Positions 2,939 to 55,752 of a DNA stretch of 64,000 nt are shown piece after piece. The first letter of the stretch is position 1. Each line of letters opens with the position of its first letter. The stretch lies in assembly GCA_035531755.1 (NCBI GenBank), contig DATKSK010000010.1:1-64000 (forward strand), given 5' to 3'. The notes beneath the pieces are model-generated. The model saw only the letters and a program-made list of their open reading frames with translations. It made no database searches and was not told where the DNA came from. A program made the position numbers and the translations under genes. Origin of the DNA: Acidimicrobiales bacterium. Lineage in GTDB: Bacteria; Actinomycetota; Acidimicrobiia; Acidimicrobiales; UBA8190.

Positions 2939-4915
2939 TCAGCTGTGGACGGCGCCCATCCGGTCGCGGACGGCGCGGGCCGCCTTCTTGGCCTCGTACA
3001 TGGCCTCGTCGGCCTGGCGGACGAGCTTCATGGGGTCGGTGTCGGAGTCGCACTGCGCCAGGGCGATGCCCACGCTGGCGACGAGCGGGACCACGAAGTC
3101 CTGCACGGGGATCGAGCGCTGGGCCACGCTCTGGCGGATCCGCTCCGCCACGGCGTCGCCGTCGCAGCTGTGGTCGTGGCACAGCACGACGAGGAACTCG
3201 TCGCCGCCGAGACGGCCGACCACGTCACACTCGCCGGTGGCCTCCATGAGGGCCACGCCGGTGCTGAGGATGGCGGTGTCGCCGACCTCGTGCCCGTAGG
3301 TGTCGTTGAGGGGCTTCAGCCCGTCGAGGTCGATGAACAGGACGGCCACGGTCTCGCCCTGGTCGCGGCGCCGGCTCACGTCCGTCGCCAGGTAGTCGAG
3401 CACGGCGGAACGGTTGAGCAGGCCGGTCAGCGGGTCGTGGGTGGCCGCCTCGTGCAGCTGCTTGCGCTGGGCCTCGCGCTCGCGGATCCGGGCGGACAGC
3501 GTGTCCACCGAGGCCTGCAGTGCCCGACCCGTCCGGCCCGGCAGCGGGGTGAGCATCTCGAGGTGCGACAGGTCTTCGGCCGCCAGGGCGACGGCCTGGG
3601 CTTCGACGGCCTTCAGGGTCGACGTCATGTCGTTGAAGGCCGCCGTGGTCGTCACCACCTCCTTGGGCCCGGTCTCGGGCAGGGGCGACACGTCGAAGTC
3701 GCCGGTGTGCACCTGGAGCGCCGTGGTGGCCAGCTTCTTGAGCGGCCGGGTGAGCACGCGGCCGGCCGCGATCACGCCGCCCACGCTGACGAGGGCCAGG
3801 GCCACCAGGAACAGCAGCTCGCCGACGAACCGGCTGGTGGCGTCGGCGGCCTGGACCAGTGCCGTCTCACGGAGGTCCTGGGACGCCGAGGTCACCAGCT
3901 TGTTGAGATCCGCGAGGAAGTGCAGGCCCGGCGCCATGGACTGCCCCGCGAACGTGGTGTTGTCCACGAAGGGCGCCGGCTGCCCGTTCAGGGCCACCGT
4001 CAGCCCCTGCTGGATGGTCCCTTCGAAGTGCCGGTCGGCGGGGCTCTGCTGGAGGACGTTCCACGCCGCCGCCGCCCGCGGGCTCAGGTGGCCGGCGAAC
4101 TCGGTCGTGGCGACGTCGTACTGGCCGGCGGCCTGGATCAGCTCCTGCTTGGCGTCGGCGGGGCCGATGCCCTCGAGCACGAAGATGGCGCCATCGACCT
4201 CGTGGCCGCCGGAGAGGAACGCCTCGTACGCCTGGCGCAGCGCCGCCGCGTGCACCTCGAACGATCCGGGCGGCTGCCACGTGGAGATGTCCGCCAGCAT
4301 GCGGTTGTAGTCCCGGTACCAGAGGTTGTCGACGTCCACCGACATCTTCACCGTGTACGCCCGGGCGTCGGTGAACGAGATGGTGTTGGCGGCCACCTTG
4401 GGGATCATCCGCTTCAGGCCGGCCACGTCCGCCCGCAGGATCGGCGTCGACGAGAACGTCGGGAAGCCGGCGATCTTGGCCGTGCCCTCGGCGATCTGGA
4501 CCCGGTAGGGGACCGCCGGTTTGAGCAGGGTGTCGAGGAGGGGCTCGCTGATGCCGATCTGGGCGGCGTACGACACCGCCAGCATGGGCACCTCGAGCGG
4601 GTTCATCTGCGCCCGGGCGGCAGCCACGGTCTGGAGCTGGGCGGCGTCGCGCGCCACGACCTGCGCGTTCTGCCGGTAGGCCCAGCCTCCCGCGGCGCCC
4701 GACGCCGTCAGGATGCCCGTGGACAGGATGGGAAGCGCCACCACGAGGACGAGGATGAAGCGCACGCCCGGGCGCCACCGCGGCGCGCCCTCCTTCGGGG
4801 CGCGACCGTCGTGGCCGGGCCCCGGTCCGACGACCGGGCCCTCGTCGCCGCGCGGTGTGTCGCCGGCATGCGGGTTCTTACGTGTGCGCACCATGGCTCC
4901 GAGAGGTGTCGACAT
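2939..4915 (-). CDS. Membrane HAMP-GGDEF diguanylate cyclase
   Basis: Predicted diguanylate cyclase making cyclic-di-GMP. A basic N-terminus leads into a first membrane segment (about residues 50-75). A large extracytoplasmic, mostly helical region of about 270 residues follows, then a second membrane segment (about 350-375), a HAMP linker and a C-terminal GGDEF domain. The catalytic motif is intact (RLGGDEF). The position of the RxxD inhibitory site reads GECD, so the arginine is missing and feedback inhibition may be weak. ATG at 4915 is supported by a purine-rich AAGAAGGTGA ribosome site. It lies between two other cyclic-di-GMP genes on the same strand. The extracytoplasmic sensor was not recognised beyond a general resemblance to helical (nitrate-sensor-like) domains. 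Confidence 0.92.
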   Translation of the reverse strand: MSTPLGAMVRTRKNPHAGDTPRGDEGPVVGPGPGHDGRAPKEGAPRWRPGVRFILVLVVALPILSTGILTASGAAGGWAYRQNAQVVARDAAQLQTVAAARAQMNPLEVPMLAVSYAAQIGISEPLLDTLLKPAVPYRVQIAEGTAKIAGFPTFSSTPILRADVAGLKRMIPKVAANTISFTDARAYTVKMSVDVDNLWYRDYNRMLADISTWQPPGSFEVHAAALRQAYEAFLSGGHEVDGAIFVLEGIGPADAKQELIQAAGQYDVATTEFAGHLSPRAAAAWNVLQQSPADRHFEGTIQQGLTVALNGQPAPFVDNTTFAGQSMAPGLHFLADLNKLVTSASQDLRETALVQAADATSRFVGELLFLVALALVSVGGVIAAGRVLTRPLKKLATTALQVHTGDFDVSPLPETGPKEVVTTTAAFNDMTSTLKAVEAQAVALAAEDLSHLEMLTPLPGRTGRALQASVDTLSARIREREAQRKQLHEAATHDPLTGLLNRSAVLDYLATDVSRRRDQGETVAVLFIDLDGLKPLNDTYGHEVGDTAILSTGVALMEATGECDVVGRLGGDEFLVVLCHDHSCDGDAVAERIRQSVAQRSIPVQDFVVPLVASVGIALAQCDSDTDPMKLVRQADEAMYEAKKAARAVRDRMGAVHS

Positions 4916-34038: not shown

Positions 34039-35391
34039 TTGTCCGGCACTGCGCAGGCATCCTCTTCGACCCGGCCCCGACGCCTGGTGCGCGCCATGCG
34101 CGGCGACCGCGCCGGCGGTGTGGCGCTGGCGCTGGGCACGGTGGGCGCGCTGGCCTGGGCCAACTGGCCCGGGTCGAGCTACCGCCACGCCTGGGGGACG
34201 GTGGCGCCGTGGTCGTCGTCGCTGGGCCTGCGGCTGACGCTGCGCGACTGGGTCGACCAGGGGCTGCTGCTCGTGTTCTTCCTCCTCGTCGGCCTCGAGA
34301 TCCGCCGGGAAGCGACCGCCGGGGAGCTGGCGTCGTGGCGCCGGGCGGCCCTCCCGGTGATGGCGGCCCTGAGCGGGATGCTCGTCCCGGCGGGGATCTA
34401 CGCCGCCGTCACCGCCGGGTCGCCCGCGGCGCGCGGCTGGGGCATCCCCATGGCCACCGACGTCGCCTTCGCCCTGGGGGCGCTGGCCCTCGTGGGGGCG
34501 CGCTCCATGCCGCGGCTGCGCGTCTTCCTCATGACGCTGGCGGTCGCCGACGACATCTTCTCGGTCGTGGTCCTGGTCTGCTTCTACAGCGCCGGCGTCC
34601 GCGCCGCCTGGCTGGTGGCCGCCCTCCTGGTCCTGGCGGTGACGGTCGTGCTCCGGCTGCGCGTCGACCGGGCCGGCCCGCTGGTCGTGGCCCTCGGTGC
34701 CGCCGCCTGGCTGGCGCTGCTGCACGCCGGCGTCGAGGCCGCCGTCGTCGGTGTGGCCGTCGGCCTCCTGGCGCCGCCGGTGCACCGCCCGCACCGGGCA
34801 CCCGCCCGACGCGCCCGGTTCGCCCACGTCGTGGCCGGTACCGGCGCCCGGCGCTGGGAGCTGCGCCTCGGGCCGTGGGTGAACGTCGTCATCCTCCCCG
34901 TGTTCGCGCTGGCCAACGCCGGGGTGGCGCTGTCGGGCTCCGGGCTCGGCACCGCCCAGGGCCTGCGCGTCTTCGCCGCCGTGGTGGTGGCCCGCGTGGC
35001 CGGGAAGCCGCTCGGCATCGCCGCCGCCCGTTGGGCCACGGCGCGCCTGCAGACCGACGGGGCCTCCTCGCCCGTGCGCGGCAGGGCGCTCGTGGGCCTG
35101 GGGGCCACCGCCAGCGTCGGCTTCACCATCCCCCTGCTCGTCGTCCGCGCCGCCTTCCAAGACGGCCCGCTGGCGTCGGGCGCCATCGCCGGGCTGCTGG
35201 CGGCATCGGTGCTCGGCTGGGCCCTGGCGCTCGCCGTCCTGCGTGACGGCGCGGCCGGCGGAACGGTCAGCGAGCCGCCGGTCCCAGGACGAGGTCGGCC
35301 AGGCGCGACCGCTGGAACCCCTGGGCGCCGAAGAGGAGGTCGTCCTGCTTCGCCCGCCGGTACAGCAGATGGCAGTCGACGTCCCAGGTGA
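34039..35391 (+). CDS. nhaA: NhaA-type sodium/proton antiporter
   Basis: Na+/H+ antiporter of the NhaA family (up to 450 residues). Key stretches: FFLLVGLEIRRE, GWGIPMATDVAFALG and LAVADDIFSVVV with the adjacent Asp pair that binds the ion, and the C-terminal TASVGFTIPLLV. The start is uncertain: TTG 34039 is the longest, and GTG 34087 or ATG 34096 would begin just before the first helix. A TAGGCT -10-like element lies at 33976-33981. The last 44 residues are Pro/Gly/Arg-rich and read across 125 bases of the convergent acyl-CoA dehydrogenase gene, an unusually long overlap. Confidence 0.9.
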   Translation: MSGTAQASSSTRPRRLVRAMRGDRAGGVALALGTVGALAWANWPGSSYRHAWGTVAPWSSSLGLRLTLRDWVDQGLLLVFFLLVGLEIRREATAGELASWRRAALPVMAALSGMLVPAGIYAAVTAGSPAARGWGIPMATDVAFALGALALVGARSMPRLRVFLMTLAVADDIFSVVVLVCFYSAGVRAAWLVAALLVLAVTVVLRLRVDRAGPLVVALGAAAWLALLHAGVEAAVVGVAVGLLAPPVHRPHRAPARRARFAHVVAGTGARRWELRLGPWVNVVILPVFALANAGVALSGSGLGTAQGLRVFAAVVVARVAGKPLGIAAARWATARLQTDGASSPVRGRALVGLGATASVGFTIPLLVVRAAFQDGPLASGAIAGLLAASVLGWALALAVLRDGAAGGTVSEPPVPGRGRPGATAGTPGRRRGGRPASPAGTADGSRRPR

Positions 35392-36367
35392 AGCCCACGC
35401 CCCCGTGCACCTGGATGCTCTCGGCCGTGACGAAGTCGGCGGCCTCGCTCACGAACCCCTTGCACATGGCCGCGGCGCGCTCGCGCTCGGGGTCCTCGGC
35501 GTCCGACGCCCACGCCGCGTAGTGCGTCCCCACCCGGGCCAGCTCGACGCGGTGCAGCATGTCGGCCGCCTTGTGCTTGATGACCTGGAACGTGGCGATG
35601 GGCCGGTCGAACTGCACACGCACCTGGGCGTACTCGACCGCCAGGTGCAGGGCGCGCTCGGCCGTCCCCACCAGCTCGGCGCACACGGCCACGTTCACGT
35701 CGTCGAGCACGCGCCGCCACAGCGCGCCGTGGTCACCGGGCGGGCCCACGCGCCGGGCCCGGCGGCCGTCGAGCACGATGCGGGCCACCTTGCGGGTGAC
35801 GTCGAGGGCGGGCACGGGCTCGCCCGCCGGCTGTTCGAGGAGGAAGGTGCCGAGCCCGTCACCGTCGCGGGCCACCACCAGCGCGAAGTCGGCGGCGGCG
35901 CCGTCCAGGACCACGGGCTTGGTGCCCCCGAGCACCCACCCGTCGCCCGCCGGCGTGGCCCGCGCGCCCAGGCCGGCGAGCGGGTCGCCGTGGCCGGGCT
36001 CCTCGACCGCCACCGTGCCCCGGCGCCGGCCGGCCGCCAGGTCGGGCAGCACCTCGTCGAGGCCCAGGCGCACCGCTCCCAGCGTGGCCGCCACCGCCGA
36101 GGACAGCACGGGGCCGGGGAAGGGCAGCCGGCCCAGCTCCTCCTGGAGCACGACCAGGTCGACGAGCCCGAGGCCGAGACCGCCGGCCGACTCCGGCACG
36201 AGCACGCCCAGCCAGCCGAGGTCGGCCATGGTGGCCCACAGCGCCGGGGTGACGCCGACGGGGTCCTCGATCATGGCCCGCACGTAGGCGGACGGCGCCT
36301 CGGAGGCCAGGGTCGTCCGCACCGCGGCGCGGAAGTCGTCCTGCTCGGCGGAGAAGGTGAAGTCCAC
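35267..36367 (-). CDS. Acyl-CoA dehydrogenase, short FadE type
   Basis: Acyl-CoA dehydrogenase-family protein of 366 residues in the short, diverged group whose members often pair with a second subunit (heterotetramers such as FadE28-FadE29 in sterol side-chain degradation). The N-terminal FTFSAEQDDFRAAVR, the PESAGGLGLGLVDLVVLQEELGR helix and the C-terminal YAQVRVQFDRPIATFQVIKHKAADM plus QVHGGVGFTWDVDCHLLYRR region are clear. GTG 36367 starts it; the ribosome site is weak. It lies 26 bases after the thiolase gene and is probably in its operon. Confidence 0.92.
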   Translation of the reverse strand: MDFTFSAEQDDFRAAVRTTLASEAPSAYVRAMIEDPVGVTPALWATMADLGWLGVLVPESAGGLGLGLVDLVVLQEELGRLPFPGPVLSSAVAATLGAVRLGLDEVLPDLAAGRRRGTVAVEEPGHGDPLAGLGARATPAGDGWVLGGTKPVVLDGAAADFALVVARDGDGLGTFLLEQPAGEPVPALDVTRKVARIVLDGRRARRVGPPGDHGALWRRVLDDVNVAVCAELVGTAERALHLAVEYAQVRVQFDRPIATFQVIKHKAADMLHRVELARVGTHYAAWASDAEDPERERAAAMCKGFVSEAADFVTAESIQVHGGVGFTWDVDCHLLYRRAKQDDLLFGAQGFQRSRLADLVLGPAAR

Positions 36368-36393
36368 GGGTCGGCTTGCCTGACCGCGGCCCG

Positions 36394-37584
36394 CTACGCC
36401 AGGCGCTCGATGACGGTGGCGTTGGCCTGGCCGCCGCCCTCGCACATCGTCTGGAACCCGTAACGGCCGCCGGTGGCCTCGAGCTGGTTGAGCAGCGTCG
36501 TCATGAGGCGCACACCGCTCGCCCCCAACGGGTGCCCGATGGCGATGGCGCCCCCGCGCGGGTTCAGGCGATCGGGTTCCGGCGAGAAGGCGCGGGCCCA
36601 CATGAGGGCGATGACCGCGAACGCCTCGTTGCACTCCACGGCGTCGAAGTCGTCCACCGCCATGCCGGTGCGCTCGAGCAGCTTGCGCGTGGCGGGCACG
36701 GGGGCCGACAACACGATGGCGGCGTCCTCGGCCGCCACCGCGAAGGCGTGGAACCGGGCGCGGATCGCGAGCCCCAGGCGCTCGGCCACCGACCGCTCGG
36801 CGATCAGCATGGCGGCGGCGCCGTCGGTCATCTGCGACGAGTTGCCGGCGGTGATGTCGGTGGCGGTCTCGGGCTCGAACGGCTGCGCCGGGGGGAGCGC
36901 GGCGAGGCGCTCCAGGGTGGTGTCCCTGCGGATGCCCTCGTCGGTGCTGAGCACCTGGCCGGTGAGGGTGCCCTCGTCGTCGCGGACGGGGACGGGGATG
37001 GCCTCCTTGGCGAAGTGCCCCGAGTCCGTGGCCGCCGCGGCGCGGCGGTGGCTCTCGAGCGCGTACTCGTCCATGTCCCGGCGCGTGATCTTCCACTGTT
37101 CGGCCAGGAGCTGCGCCACCCGGAACTGCATCCACAGCCGGCCCTCGATCGCGTCGAGGAACGACTGCGGGAACGGGCCCGTCCCGCCGCGGGCGTTGGA
37201 GGCGAGCGGGACGCGGCTCATGGACTCCACGCCGCAGGCGACGGCGATGTCGTAGTGGCCCGCCACCACACCCGCGGCCGCGAAGTGCACGGCCTGCTGG
37301 GACGAGCCACACTGGCGGTCGACGGTGGTGGCCGGCACCGACTGCGGGAGCCCCGCCGCCACCCAGGCGTTGCGGGCCACGTTGGTCGACTGCTCCCCCA
37401 CCTGGCTGACGCACCCGCCGATGACGTCGTCGACGCGCCCGGGGTCGACCTTGGTGCGCGTCACCAGGTGCGACAGGGTGTGGGCGAGCAGGTCGACGGG
37501 GTGCCAGGTGGCCAGCGCGCCGCCGCGCTTGCCGAAGACGGTGCGACAGGTGTCGACGATGACGGCTTCGCGCGCTGCGGCCAC
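36394..37584 (-). CDS. Thiolase / acetyl-CoA acyltransferase
   Basis: Thiolase of 396 residues catalysing the final thiolytic step of beta-oxidation (or the reverse condensation). The nucleophilic Cys is in TVDRQCGSSQQAVH (about residue 91). The other catalytic elements are VECNEAFAV (Asn/Glu), GGAIAIGHPLGASG (His) and the second Cys in MCEGGGQANA. GTG 37584 begins the conserved fold. A short ORF with a strong ribosome site ends two bases before it, so translation of the thiolase may be coupled to that leader. Downstream is the short FadE-type dehydrogenase. Confidence 0.95.
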   Translation of the reverse strand: MAAAREAVIVDTCRTVFGKRGGALATWHPVDLLAHTLSHLVTRTKVDPGRVDDVIGGCVSQVGEQSTNVARNAWVAAGLPQSVPATTVDRQCGSSQQAVHFAAAGVVAGHYDIAVACGVESMSRVPLASNARGGTGPFPQSFLDAIEGRLWMQFRVAQLLAEQWKITRRDMDEYALESHRRAAAATDSGHFAKEAIPVPVRDDEGTLTGQVLSTDEGIRRDTTLERLAALPPAQPFEPETATDITAGNSSQMTDGAAAMLIAERSVAERLGLAIRARFHAFAVAAEDAAIVLSAPVPATRKLLERTGMAVDDFDAVECNEAFAVIALMWARAFSPEPDRLNPRGGAIAIGHPLGASGVRLMTTLLNQLEATGGRYGFQTMCEGGGQANATVIERLA

Positions 37585-37586
37585 GG

Positions 37587-37655
37587 TCAGCCCCGCGCCC
37601 GGCGTCGGGCACCGGGCTCGTCGAGGGTGGTGCTGGACTCCCGGCTCCCGCTCAT
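37587..37655 (-). CDS. 22-residue leader ORF before the thiolase
   Basis: ATG 37655 has a GAGGAGGGG ribosome site, far better than any before the thiolase GTG. The peptide MSGSRESSTTLDEPGARRRA.. ends two bases before that GTG. This layout suggests the leader delivers ribosomes to the thiolase start. The peptide itself resembles nothing known. Confidence 0.45.
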   Translation of the reverse strand: MSGSRESSTTLDEPGARRRARG

Positions 37656-37700
37656 CGGCCCCTCCTCGCAGGCGCCCCCACGTTCCCCCCGCCGGGGATG

Positions 37701-37726
37701 GCGAACGCTCAGTGTAGTAAGTTCGC
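37701..37726. promoter_or_regulatory. Inverted repeat in divergent thiolase/dehydrogenase promoter
   Basis: GCGAAC (37701-37706) and GTTCGC (37721-37726) are perfect inverted arms around 14 bases that contain TAGTAAGTT, with a TAAGTT -10-like hexamer at 37718-37723 for the plus strand. It is a candidate operator for a FadR- or TetR-type regulator controlling both divergent beta-oxidation genes. Confidence 0.45.
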
Positions 37727-37731
37727 TGACG

Positions 37732-37806
37732 ATGGTGTCAGGTCCGGTGCCCGCCCGCCAGCGCGCGCCCGAGCCGCCCGAGCCGGCGGGCGCGGCCGGC
37801 CGATGA
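37732..37806 (+). CDS. 24-residue leader ORF coupled to the dehydrogenase
   Basis: ATG 37732 lies eight bases after the TAAGTT -10-like element, so it could be translated from a leaderless or nearly leaderless mRNA. The peptide (MVSGPVPARQ...GAAGR) stops at TGA 37804-37806, overlapping the ATG of the dehydrogenase at 37803 (ATGA). The dehydrogenase start has no ribosome site of its own, which fits coupled translation. Confidence 0.45.
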   Translation: MVSGPVPARQRAPEPPEPAGAAGR

Positions 37807-39011
37807 GCTCTGTCGACCTCTCCGAGGACGACGACCGGGCCGCGCTGCGCACGCTGGCCCGCGACGTCGCCGAGCGCGACATCGCCCCCCATGCGGCGCG
37901 TTGGGACGAGACCGAGGAGTTCGCCGAGGAGTCCCTGCAGGCGCTGCGGCGCGCCGAGCTGTTCAGCGTGACCGTCGGTCAGGACTACGGCGGGATGGGC
38001 ATGGGCGACGTCGAGGCCGCCATCGTGCTCGAGGAGATCGCCCGGGTGGACGTGTCGAGCGCGATCCTGTGCCAGCTCGTGTTCAACGGCCCCCCCCGGG
38101 CCATCGAACACCTCGGCGGCGACGCGCTCCGGGACCGGTGGCTCCCCGAGGCCGCCCGGGGCGAGCTGTTCTGCATCGGCATCACCGAGCCCGACGCCGG
38201 CTCGGCCGCCACCTCCATGCGCGCACACCTCACCCCCGACGGCGACGGGTGGCGGCTCGACGCCTACAAGAACTACGTGACCGGCGGGCACAAGGCCGTC
38301 GCCTGCCTGGTGTGGTGCCGGTTCCCCGGCAGCGAGGCCGGGACGGGCAGGGGCATCGGGGCCGTCGTCGTCGACCTGGCGCGCCACGGGGTGAGCATCG
38401 CCGGCACGCACCGCAAGATGGGCCTGCGGGGCTGCACGGAGGCCGAGCTCGCCTTCGACGGCGTGCGCATCGAGCCCGGTGACGTCCTGGTGCCGGGCGA
38501 CCCCGCGGACAACCACGGCCTCAAGACGCTGCTCGCCCACATCAACCACGAGCGCTGCGGCAACGCGGCGATGTGCCTGGGCGCCGCCCAGGGGGCCCTC
38601 GAGTACGCCATGGGCTACATGCGCGAGCGCAAGGTCGGCGACAAGACGCTCGCCAGCCTGCAGGGCCTGCAGTGGAAGGTCGCCGACATGGCCACGGCCC
38701 TCGAGGGCGCCCGCCTGCTGCTGCAGCGGGCCCTCGTGCTCGCCGGCCCCCACGGCACCCCGCCGCCGCTCGAGTCGGCCATGGCCAAGATCGCCTGCAA
38801 CCTCGCCGCCAAGCAGGTGTGCGACGAGGCCATCCAGCTCCTCGGCGGCTACGGCTACAGCCGCGAGTACCCCGTCGAGCGCGCTTACCGCGACATCCGG
38901 GGGCTGTGCATCGGGGCGGGCACGGTGGAGATCCAGCGCAACTTCGTCGGCACCTCGTTGCTCGCCGGCCGCGTCCCCGAGGGGCCGGGGTGGAAGCCGG
39001 TGCGGCCGTGA
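37803..39011 (+). CDS. Acyl-CoA dehydrogenase
   Basis: Flavin acyl-CoA dehydrogenase of 402 residues, standard full-length type. Landmarks: GITEPDAGSAATSMRAHL, YKNYVTGG, the HRKMGLRGCTEAELAFDGVRI strand, QGLQWKVADMATALEGARLL and the C-terminal LGGYGYSREYPVERAYRDIRG with the likely catalytic Glu. ATG 37803 begins the conserved fold; the frame is open further upstream but that part is better explained by a leader ORF in another frame. It diverges from thiolase and a second dehydrogenase, so both sides probably serve the same degradation pathway. Confidence 0.93.
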   Translation: MSSVDLSEDDDRAALRTLARDVAERDIAPHAARWDETEEFAEESLQALRRAELFSVTVGQDYGGMGMGDVEAAIVLEEIARVDVSSAILCQLVFNGPPRAIEHLGGDALRDRWLPEAARGELFCIGITEPDAGSAATSMRAHLTPDGDGWRLDAYKNYVTGGHKAVACLVWCRFPGSEAGTGRGIGAVVVDLARHGVSIAGTHRKMGLRGCTEAELAFDGVRIEPGDVLVPGDPADNHGLKTLLAHINHERCGNAAMCLGAAQGALEYAMGYMRERKVGDKTLASLQGLQWKVADMATALEGARLLLQRALVLAGPHGTPPPLESAMAKIACNLAAKQVCDEAIQLLGGYGYSREYPVERAYRDIRGLCIGAGTVEIQRNFVGTSLLAGRVPEGPGWKPVRP

Positions 39012-49317: not shown

Positions 49318-49421
49318 CAGTCCCCCTCTCCCTGCCCACCGCCACCCACGGGCCGCCCCGTTTCCCGACGGGGCTCCGGTCGACGACGTGCCTGACGCCG
49401 GTGTCAGTTCGTGCTCGGCCA

Positions 49422-53901: not shown

Positions 53902-55716
53902 CTACAGGTCCCAGGCCTGGGTGCGACCGCTCTCGCCGAACGCGGCGTGCAGCGCCGCCTCCTCGTCGGGGCCGAACGACCGGTAGGCGTCCTCCCCGCG
54001 GCCCCGGGTGAACACGGCGTCCCCGTCCACCCGGTCGGCGCGGAACTTCTGGTGCACGAGGGTGCGCACGAGGACCTTGTTGGTCGGCGTGGTGGGGAGC
54101 GCGCCGCACAGCCGGACGTAGCGGGGCCGCCACTTCGGGCTCAGGTCGGGTTGCGCGTCCAGCCAGGCGGCGAACGCCGCGGGGTCGAAGGCCGCGCCCT
54201 CGCCCAGGACCACGGCCGCCATGACCTGGTCGCCGGCGTCGGCGTCGGGGACCCCGTACACCGACACCAGCATGACGTCGGGGTGGCGGGCCACGATGGC
54301 CTCGATCGGCGCGGCCGGAAAATTCTCTCCGTCGACGCGCAGCCAGTCCGAGGTGCGGCCGGCGAAGTACACCCAGTCCTGCGCGTCGACGTACCCGAGG
54401 TCACCGCTCCAGTACCAGCCGTTGCGGGTGGTACGGGCCATGGCCTCGGCGTTGCGGTAGTAGCCCTCGAACGGGCCCACGCCCTCGGCGTTGACGATCT
54501 CGCCCACGCACTCCTCGGCGTTCACGAGCCTTCCCTCGCCGTCGAACACGGCACGGGGCAGCTCGTTGCCGCCGGGGTCGACGACCTTGATGCCCTGGCG
54601 CAGGCGGCCGACCGACCCCCGGGGCACGCCGCCCGAGCGGTCGAGGGCGATGCCTCCTTCGGTCGAGCCGAACACGTCGACCACCGCCACCCCGAAGCGC
54701 TCGGCCACCGCCTCCACCACGTGCGGGGAGCCCTCGTTGCCGTAGGCCAGCTTGAGGGGGTTGCGGGCGTCGTCCGGCTTCTCGGGCGTGGCGAGGAGGT
54801 ACGCCAGCGGCTTGCCGGTGTAGTTGAACCACGTGGCGCCGTACCGGCGCACGTCGTCGAGGAACCGCGACGCGCTGAAGCGCCGGGCGAGGCCGACCGA
54901 GGCTCCCGCCACCAGCGCCGGGGCCAGGCCGACCATGAGCGAGTTGGAGTGGAACAGCGGCATGGCCAGGTACCCCACGTCGTCGGGGCCGACGTCGAGG
55001 ACCATCGTCATGCGGTTGCCGGTCGTGAGCAGCCGCCGCTGCGTGCAGCGCACCGCCTTCGGGGCCGCCGAGGTCCCCGAGGTGAACAGCAGCACCCACA
55101 GGGTCTCCACGTCGGGCTCGAGGCCGGCGTCGCCCTCACCGGGGCCCCAGGGCGCCAGCGCGGCGTCGAGCTCGTCGCCCAGGACGACGGGGGGGTCGTC
55201 GTCGTCGGCGAAGCGCCCGGACACGAACAGGCCACCGGGGAGCGCCAGCTCGGCCGCCACCGGGGCCAGGAGCTCCTGGTGGCGTGGCTCGGTGATGAGC
55301 AGCTGGACGTCGGTGTGCGTGATGTCGGCGAGCAGGTGCTCGTCGCGTCGCGTGTGGTTGAGGCCCACCACCGCGGCCCCGACGAGGGCAGCGCCGGCCA
55401 GGGCGAAGACGTAGTCGGGGGTGTTGTCGAGCAGCACGGCGACGTGCGGCGGGCGGTCGGGGTCGAGGCGTCGGCGGAAGAGCCCGGCGAAGCGCGTGGC
55501 CTCCCCGAACAGCTCGGCGTGCGACCAGGTGCGATCGCCGAAGTGCAGCGCCGGCCGCGGCGCGTACACCGGGTCGGTGCCGTTGCGCCTGAGCAGGGCG
55601 GCGGCGTTGGGCGCCGGCAGCGGCGCCTCGCCCGGTGCCGGCGCCAGGGCGACGCGCTCGGCGACCTCGGGCGGGGCCACGACGTGCGTCCGGGAGGCGG
55701 CGCGTTCTCTGACCAC
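53902..55716 (-). CDS. FATP/FadD-type acyl-CoA ligase
   Basis: Acyl-CoA synthetase of 604 residues, paralogous to the ligase at 14382-16082 (shared FSAS-FLPDV/FLDDVRRYG, FNYxGxxLAY and DWLRVDGENFPAAP elements). The ATP loop reads LFTSGTSAAPKA, lacking the second Gly of the usual TSGSTGxPK. DVFGSTEGG, YWSGDLGYVDAQDWVYFAGR and the C-terminal Lys in PTNKVLVRTL are present, so activity is still likely. GTG 55716 lies six bases after a TAACCT -10 element, giving a leaderless mRNA. It heads the operon running to the CoA-transferase. Confidence 0.92.
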   Translation of the reverse strand: MVRERAASRTHVVAPPEVAERVALAPAPGEAPLPAPNAAALLRRNGTDPVYAPRPALHFGDRTWSHAELFGEATRFAGLFRRRLDPDRPPHVAVLLDNTPDYVFALAGAALVGAAVVGLNHTRRDEHLLADITHTDVQLLITEPRHQELLAPVAAELALPGGLFVSGRFADDDDPPVVLGDELDAALAPWGPGEGDAGLEPDVETLWVLLFTSGTSAAPKAVRCTQRRLLTTGNRMTMVLDVGPDDVGYLAMPLFHSNSLMVGLAPALVAGASVGLARRFSASRFLDDVRRYGATWFNYTGKPLAYLLATPEKPDDARNPLKLAYGNEGSPHVVEAVAERFGVAVVDVFGSTEGGIALDRSGGVPRGSVGRLRQGIKVVDPGGNELPRAVFDGEGRLVNAEECVGEIVNAEGVGPFEGYYRNAEAMARTTRNGWYWSGDLGYVDAQDWVYFAGRTSDWLRVDGENFPAAPIEAIVARHPDVMLVSVYGVPDADAGDQVMAAVVLGEGAAFDPAAFAAWLDAQPDLSPKWRPRYVRLCGALPTTPTNKVLVRTLVHQKFRADRVDGDAVFTRGRGEDAYRSFGPDEEAALHAAFGESGRTQAWDL

Positions 55717-55722
55717 GGCGTC

Positions 55723-55752
55723 AGGTTAGGGCAATCGGCGCGGCGGTAGCGT
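55723..55752. promoter_or_regulatory. Back-to-back leaderless promoters between two ligase genes
   Basis: In a 42-base gap, TAACCT on the minus strand (55728-55723) and TAGCGT on the plus strand (55747-55752) are each six bases from the start codon of the gene they face (GTG 55716 and ATG 55759). Neither gene has a ribosome site, so both mRNAs are probably leaderless. Confidence 0.5.

Follow-up and report, generated by a model that had tools for sequence, protein, structure and literature searches.

The closest described counterparts of the locus analysed here are small ORFs of mycobacteria that start without a leader and are coupled to the next gene; their linkage and initiation are conserved and the peptide is not (Shell et al. 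2015, PMC4633059). That short ORFs may deliver ribosomes to a gene behind them is a recognised idea (review PMC12548453), and translational coupling is described in PMC10666635 as declining within about 20 nt. An artificial parallel is provided by the 34-residue scars of the E. coli Keio deletions, which, according to one account (PMC8547470), often failed to keep downstream translation. We recognised no earlier report, in the open-access literature, of deletion scars turned into coupling ORFs.

The stretch of DNA under study (64,000 nt, hereafter the window) comes from an uncultured actinobacterium whose genome, G000, has 3.28 Mb in 77 contigs and is 96% complete. Two fat-breakdown genes, encoding a thiolase and an acyl-CoA dehydrogenase, diverge here and each of them has a short ORF before it. 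The thiolase (acetyl-CoA C-acyltransferase family; 36394-37584, minus strand; PF00108, PF02803, and TIGR01930 above cut-off) starts at GTG 37584, a position that relatives keep as ATG or GTG. On its 3' side, in the same operon, lies a second acyl-CoA dehydrogenase-like gene (35267-36391, minus strand, start approximate; PF00441, PF02771), which adjoins the thiolase in seven of the nine loci of a first comparison. The acyl-CoA dehydrogenase on the opposite side (37803-39011, plus strand; PF02771, PF02770, PF00441) starts at ATG 37803. The first ATG, giving the longest ORF, is at 37698, and it was rejected as the start of this gene because it lies upstream of the conserved putative promoter; automatic annotation may wrongly begin the gene there and give it a false N-terminus.

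Orthologue search gave 65 loci, 34 of which were examined (L054-L086 and L118; L087-L117, at most 51% identical, were left out), and upstream regions were read for 33 of these and for the window copy, L001, L080 being excluded since it is matched only from residue 34 onwards. Both the dehydrogenase and the thiolase are held by 10 of the 34; with L055, whose contig ends inside gene X (described below) before reaching the thiolase, and with L001, the comparison consists of 12 divergent loci in 11 genomes, i.e. the window copy and 11 orthologous loci from related MAGs, L055 and L118 belonging to the same MAG. The MAGs of the closest loci are mostly labelled Acidimicrobiales or Acidimicrobiaceae. 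All loci except the window are from draft MAGs in which assembly errors are possible, L056 above all. The tree groups the loci as (window,(L054,(L055,L118))) with values of 97 and 94, and L056 comes next at 78. A search of 397 genomes of the order with a pattern made of the -10 box and the operator described below (a pattern that itself requires RTG) returned 12 sites in 11 genomes, against 0 for the reversed control, and by genome, contig and sequence these correspond to the same twelve loci. As a separate observation, the thiolase of L118 matches in two pieces at 2342 (residues 1-230 and 231-396), which suggests a frameshift or an assembly error.

The 22-codon ORF (37587-37655, minus strand) runs from ATG 37655 to TGA 37587 and leaves 2 nt before the thiolase GTG, while the 24-codon ORF (37732-37806, plus strand) ends with TGA 37804-37806, overlapping the dehydrogenase ATG 37803 as ATGA. 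Both arrangements had been described by a sequence-only reading of the window and are confirmed here, together with the -10-like element TAAGTT (37718-37723, plus strand), ending eight bases before ATG 37732. The same reading had attributed the only good ribosome site to the 22-codon ORF, and this was borne out by anti-SD pairing energies, for which 603 random [AG]TG sites in the window served as reference. The 22-codon ORF, preceded by the Shine-Dalgarno sequence GAGGAGGGG (37659-37667, minus strand), reaches -12.1 kcal/mol and falls in the top 1.0%; the thiolase GTG has -6.2 kcal/mol (27.9% of random sites are at least as strong), the dehydrogenase ATG -5.5 kcal/mol (37.1%) and the 24-codon ORF -1.6 kcal/mol (90.5%), that is, no ribosome site. 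The middling value of the thiolase is due to a GGGG stretch, so some direct initiation is possible. Both junctions have the make-up of termination-reinitiation pairs, with stop and start close together (+2 nt and ATGA) and a weak downstream site in each case. Short ORFs in such positions can also occur by chance, considering that in this window of 73.7% GC any ORF of at least 20 codons ends within -5 to +4 of 282 of 3767 random [AG]TG sites (7.5%), and an ATG-started ORF of 18-30 codons does so at 38 of 3767 (1.0%). One leader alone is consequently weak evidence and the case rests on comparison and conservation, although two such leaders at one promoter are notable.

On the thiolase side, the comparison revealed a gene of about 260 codons, which we call X, between the promoter and the thiolase in 8 of the 12 loci (7 of the 11 genomes: L055, L118, L056 and L058-L062); it is absent from the locus in the window, L054, L057 and L077. 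X is haem-oxygenase-like, matching PF14518 (Haem_oxygenas_2) with E 2e-12; it falls below the cut-off of the CADD family TIGR04305, and the solved 4-aminobenzoate synthases are its distant relatives. Where X is intact, X and the thiolase look coupled, the gap from stop to start being at most 5 nt in five of the seven X-bearing loci with the thiolase on the contig (+3 in L118 and L058, +4 in L056, +5 in L059 and L061), and the thiolase ribosome sites of relatives being mostly weak, about -6 kcal/mol. Such coupling is not universal: the gap is 11 nt in L060 and about 46 nt in L062, where the thiolase has its own ribosome site (-10.1), the thiolase of L058 is preceded by a fair ribosome site (-11.9), and that of L118 is also stronger (-8.1). 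We also observed that the X homologues of L042, L043, L046, L047 and L051 (genomes G098, G109, G041, G159 and G329) each have one stop codon inside the matched stretch, owing either to decay or to imprecise match ends.

There is a strong case, from comparison of these sequences, that the 22-codon ORF of the window is what remains of X after an in-frame deletion of its middle part. The 69-nt leader is composed of 22 nt of the X 5' end (37634-37655, minus strand; X of L118 and X of L056 each share 18 of the 22 letters) and 39 nt of the X 3' end including the stop codon (37587-37625, minus strand), with 8 nt at the junction assigned to neither. The 3' piece has 34 of 39 identities with L060, 32 with L056, 30 each with L058, L061 and L062, and 25 with L059, while against L118 only the last 15 nt align, 13 of them identical. 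In 2000 shuffles of X none equalled the best match at either end (P<1/2000). Against L058, L059, L060 and L061 the scar 5' end gave no significant match, the X of these loci being anchored some codons off a certain start. These figures come from comparing each end separately; aligning the scars to the 5' ends of X with MAFFT had been of limited help, as the 3' parts of the scars were forced to pair with 5' sequence of X. Both ends of X are thus present in the window and in a single frame, the X frame, and the ribosome site, start (ATG) and stop of X are all retained; a near-identical Shine-Dalgarno sequence precedes X in L118 and L055. The origin of the scar and the absence of X are, in this sense, established by comparison of sequences.

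Two further loci have a short ORF in the same place. L054 has one of 7 codons, which keeps the ribosome site, ATG AGC and GGC TGA, and shows short matches to X (5' P 0.0065-0.0185, against L056 and L118; 3' P about 0.02). In L057 the ORF has 18 codons, follows a strong ribosome site and meets the thiolase in a GTGA overlap; support for its origin in X is weak (5' P 0.03 in one of seven comparisons, 3' none). As X persists in L055, L118 and L056, the tree implies separate losses in the window and in L054, and L057 would be a third. The three leaders have no peptide in common, but their position and coupling geometry recur (+2 in the window and in L054, GTGA overlap in L057), and in all three the ribosome site of the short ORF is strong (-12.1, -10.9 and -10.7, respectively) and that of the thiolase weaker (-6.2, -7.0 and -6.1). 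The frame conservation that the sequence-only reading had suggested checking is therefore found here as to position and geometry, and not as to the peptide. L077 has no upstream ORF of the scar kind; its thiolase ATG stands 8 nt after a TAGAAT element and may be a near-leaderless start. Relocation of X was considered and rejected, as no X was found elsewhere in G000, G005 and G004 (at E<=0.001 in G000). Each of these three genomes does encode a different Haem_oxygenas_2 protein, so a paralogue might cover the function of X.

The leader of the dehydrogenase has another history. Two TANNNT elements lie back to back between the genes, TACACT (37711-37716, minus strand), the putative -10 element of the scar and thiolase, with a TANNNT recurring at this position in all 12 loci, and TAAGTT, the candidate -10 element of the dehydrogenase; elements of both directions are at fixed places across loci. 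Next to them is a palindrome, CTGAC-N6-GTCAG (37726-37741), present in 12 of 12 loci, which holds the start codon of the leader at one fixed position, as ATG (8 loci) or GTG (4 loci). The plus-strand TANNNT ends 8 nt before this codon in 11 of 12 loci, compared with 3 of 3942 random starts; in L077 it ends 4 nt before, and the next in-frame GTG is at 7. A TANNNT at such spacing is typical of leaderless actinobacterial genes. Since there is no room for a ribosome site between the element and the start codon, leaderless or near-leaderless translation is likely, and initiation at the start codon in the palindrome is probably leaderless.

The palindrome itself is probably a repressor operator and looks like that of a fatty-acid regulon: CTGAC-N6-GTCAG has 16 sites in G000, where its reversed control has 4; three of the 16 are in the window (37726-37741, 49392-49407 and 55709-55724) and 13 elsewhere in the genome. 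This enrichment, with the ATG placed in the spacer, could mean that the ATG is conserved solely through the operator, the 24-codon ORF being untranslated and the dehydrogenase starting by itself. The spacer is free elsewhere, however, as RTG is found in only 1 of the 15 other G000 palindromes in the listed orientation and in 0 in the other orientation, against 12 of 12 here (ATG 8, GTG 4), and in 7 of these the reading frame stays open from the RTG into the dehydrogenase. On this comparison of spacers we rejected the operator as sole cause of the conserved ATG, and we consider such an explanation extremely improbable. Palindromes of G000 are often near promoter-like boxes, and the one at 55709 sits between divergent acyl-CoA ligase-like ORFs. 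A similar palindrome is also seen in other families (L148, L149, L161 and L162) right before thiolase orthologues whose ribosome site is poor or lacking, as though these thiolases were leaderless and under direct control of the same operator.

In 7 of 12 loci (L057-L062 and L077) the dehydrogenase can be read in frame from the conserved start codon, through open tails of 45-111 nt. In the clade of the window (5 of 12 loci: window, L054, L055, L118 and L056) the tail is a separate ORF of 21-24 codons, and we regard as well supported by this distribution the reading of the dehydrogenase leader as a detached N-terminal tail. ATGA or GTGA is found at the dehydrogenase start in four of the five split loci, namely the window, L054, L055 and L118, where the ORFs have 24, 22, 21 and 21 codons, respectively, and are all offset by 2 modulo 3. 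Linkage is thus kept while the peptide drifts: the frame offset is constant in the four directly linked loci and the tails differ. Frame conservation on this side, the other half of the check, holds in those four close loci at three leader lengths and is altered in the fifth, L056, where a 23-codon ORF ends at ATGA and is followed by two five-codon ORFs with overlaps and then by GTGA before the dehydrogenase (its ACD match starts at 4001), a chain that could reflect serial reinitiation or else an error of assembly. Comparison at the level of sequence establishes the conserved start codon and -10 elements as well as the frame and overlap geometry. A common origin of the two leaders was rejected on the separate histories that the locus comparison indicates; one would be a gene-deletion scar and the other a detached N-terminal tail, hence no pair by origin.

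Both relics might of course be passive leftovers, neutral debris of a deletion and of a split tail, with the main genes using their own weak sites. The middling ribosome site of the thiolase is compatible with this, and so are the chance of one in three that a deletion is in frame and the 1.0-7.5% of random starts that show leaders of such geometry. Debris would hardly be expected, however, to retain jointly the ribosome site, start, frame and stop, as the window and L054 do after separate deletions, with L057 sharing the same geometry; nor does it explain a frame offset between leader and dehydrogenase that is constant in 4 of 4 loci despite differences in length, or the retention of the presumably leaderless start codon in all 12 loci. 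We therefore consider it unlikely, if not to be dismissed lightly, that the short ORFs are only debris.

As for function, the sequence-only reading had proposed that paired leader peptides could couple expression to translation conditions or simply deliver ribosomes. According to the first proposal, translation of the short ORFs, or stalling on them, would switch the main genes according to amino acid, drug or ribosome state, as in attenuation. In its favour, a single promoter of a co-regulated pathway has two short ORFs, each placed right ahead of a gene whose ribosome site is weak. But the leader peptides vary in length and sequence across relatives, neither contains a run of a single amino acid, and the thiolase leader originates as a deletion scar; moreover, a search for signs of an attenuator or riboswitch at the leaders gave no RNA fold better than shuffled sequences (z +1.31 and -0.37), no terminator and no Rfam match. 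An attenuator or arrest peptide was rejected, given that the thiolase side has no shared peptide and that of the dehydrogenase side drifts, and regulation by leader peptides appears very improbable to us. Sensing by paired peptides is accordingly not upheld, and simple ribosome delivery is the part of the proposal that fits best.

Our preferred explanation, which we hold to be likely, is that both short ORFs are relics now acting as ribosome couplers. The argument for ribosome delivery is drawn from position, ribosome sites and conservation, which make a coupler function at the present day likely for both ORFs, and it accords with what has been published on leaderless coupled small ORFs and on coupling over short distances (PMC4633059, PMC10666635, PMC12548453). 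The ancestral operon would have been X, thiolase and second dehydrogenase, with ribosomes that finish X starting the thiolase. In the lineage of the window most of X would have been deleted in frame, in an event that spared the ribosome site of X with the ATG and some 7 codons of the N-terminus, and at the other end 13 C-terminal codons, the stop and the 2-nt gap; ribosomes would now load on the scar, reach its stop at the end of 22 codons and start again at the GTG of the thiolase. On the opposite strand, the dehydrogenase transcript would begin at or just before the start codon buried in the palindromic operator and its translation would be leaderless; in the clade of the window, the tail would have lost frame and become a 24-codon ORF handing ribosomes to the dehydrogenase via ATGA. 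Transcript starts, leaderless initiation and reinitiation are all deduced from sequence in this scheme, and it is equally by deduction that the dependence of the thiolase on upstream translation may have decided which deletions survived. It should be noted that the independent events are few, that an in-frame outcome has a chance of one in three in each, and that the modulo-3 agreement consists of three lengths in four loci. The frequent failure of Keio scars to sustain coupling in E. coli (PMC8547470) also speaks for caution.

A more general idea can be put forward tentatively, with a confidence slightly below even: the loss of operon genes may be filtered by coupling, lineages losing X keeping an in-frame minigene, composed of its ribosome site, start, a handful of codons and stop, as the next gene starts poorly without it. 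Many short upstream ORFs of bacteria would then be scars of gene death or detached N-termini and not evolved regulators, both routes being represented at one promoter here and the scar route two to three times. Ribosome profiling of bacteria finds many short upstream ORFs whose origin is rarely visible. At this locus the intermediates survive in relatives, from intact X to scars of 22 and 7 (perhaps 18) codons and from a fused to a split tail, and they give a concrete, testable origin for non-regulatory leader ORFs. The idea predicts that, among deletions of coupled upstream genes, those in frame exceed the one third that chance would give.

Comparing this locus with the known systems, the dehydrogenase leader resembles the coupled small ORFs of mycobacteria (PMC4633059) in that a leaderless RTG opens a short ORF and an RTGA links it to the annotated gene; the difference is that the origin is visible here, the RTG being still the start of the gene itself in 7 of 12 loci, and that leaderless start and translation are, in our case, predicted from sequence. 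The thiolase leader is similar to Keio-type scars (PMC8547470), as it consists of the start and the C-terminal codons of a deleted operon gene and forms an in-frame peptide before the next gene, but it is natural and has 22 codons (7, perhaps 18, in relatives) instead of 34. Coupled insertions of MIRU elements in mycobacteria, as outlined in the review PMC12548453, are comparable in that a change at the gene start is tolerated because an ORF passes ribosomes on; those, however, arise by insertion of a mobile repeat, whereas the change here is a deletion within a host gene. Finally, both leaders share with termination-reinitiation pairs, as presented in PMC10666635 and PMC12548453, the overlap of stop and start or their distance of a few nt, and the weak downstream site, while differing from them in the upstream partner, which here would be a scar or a detached N-terminus.
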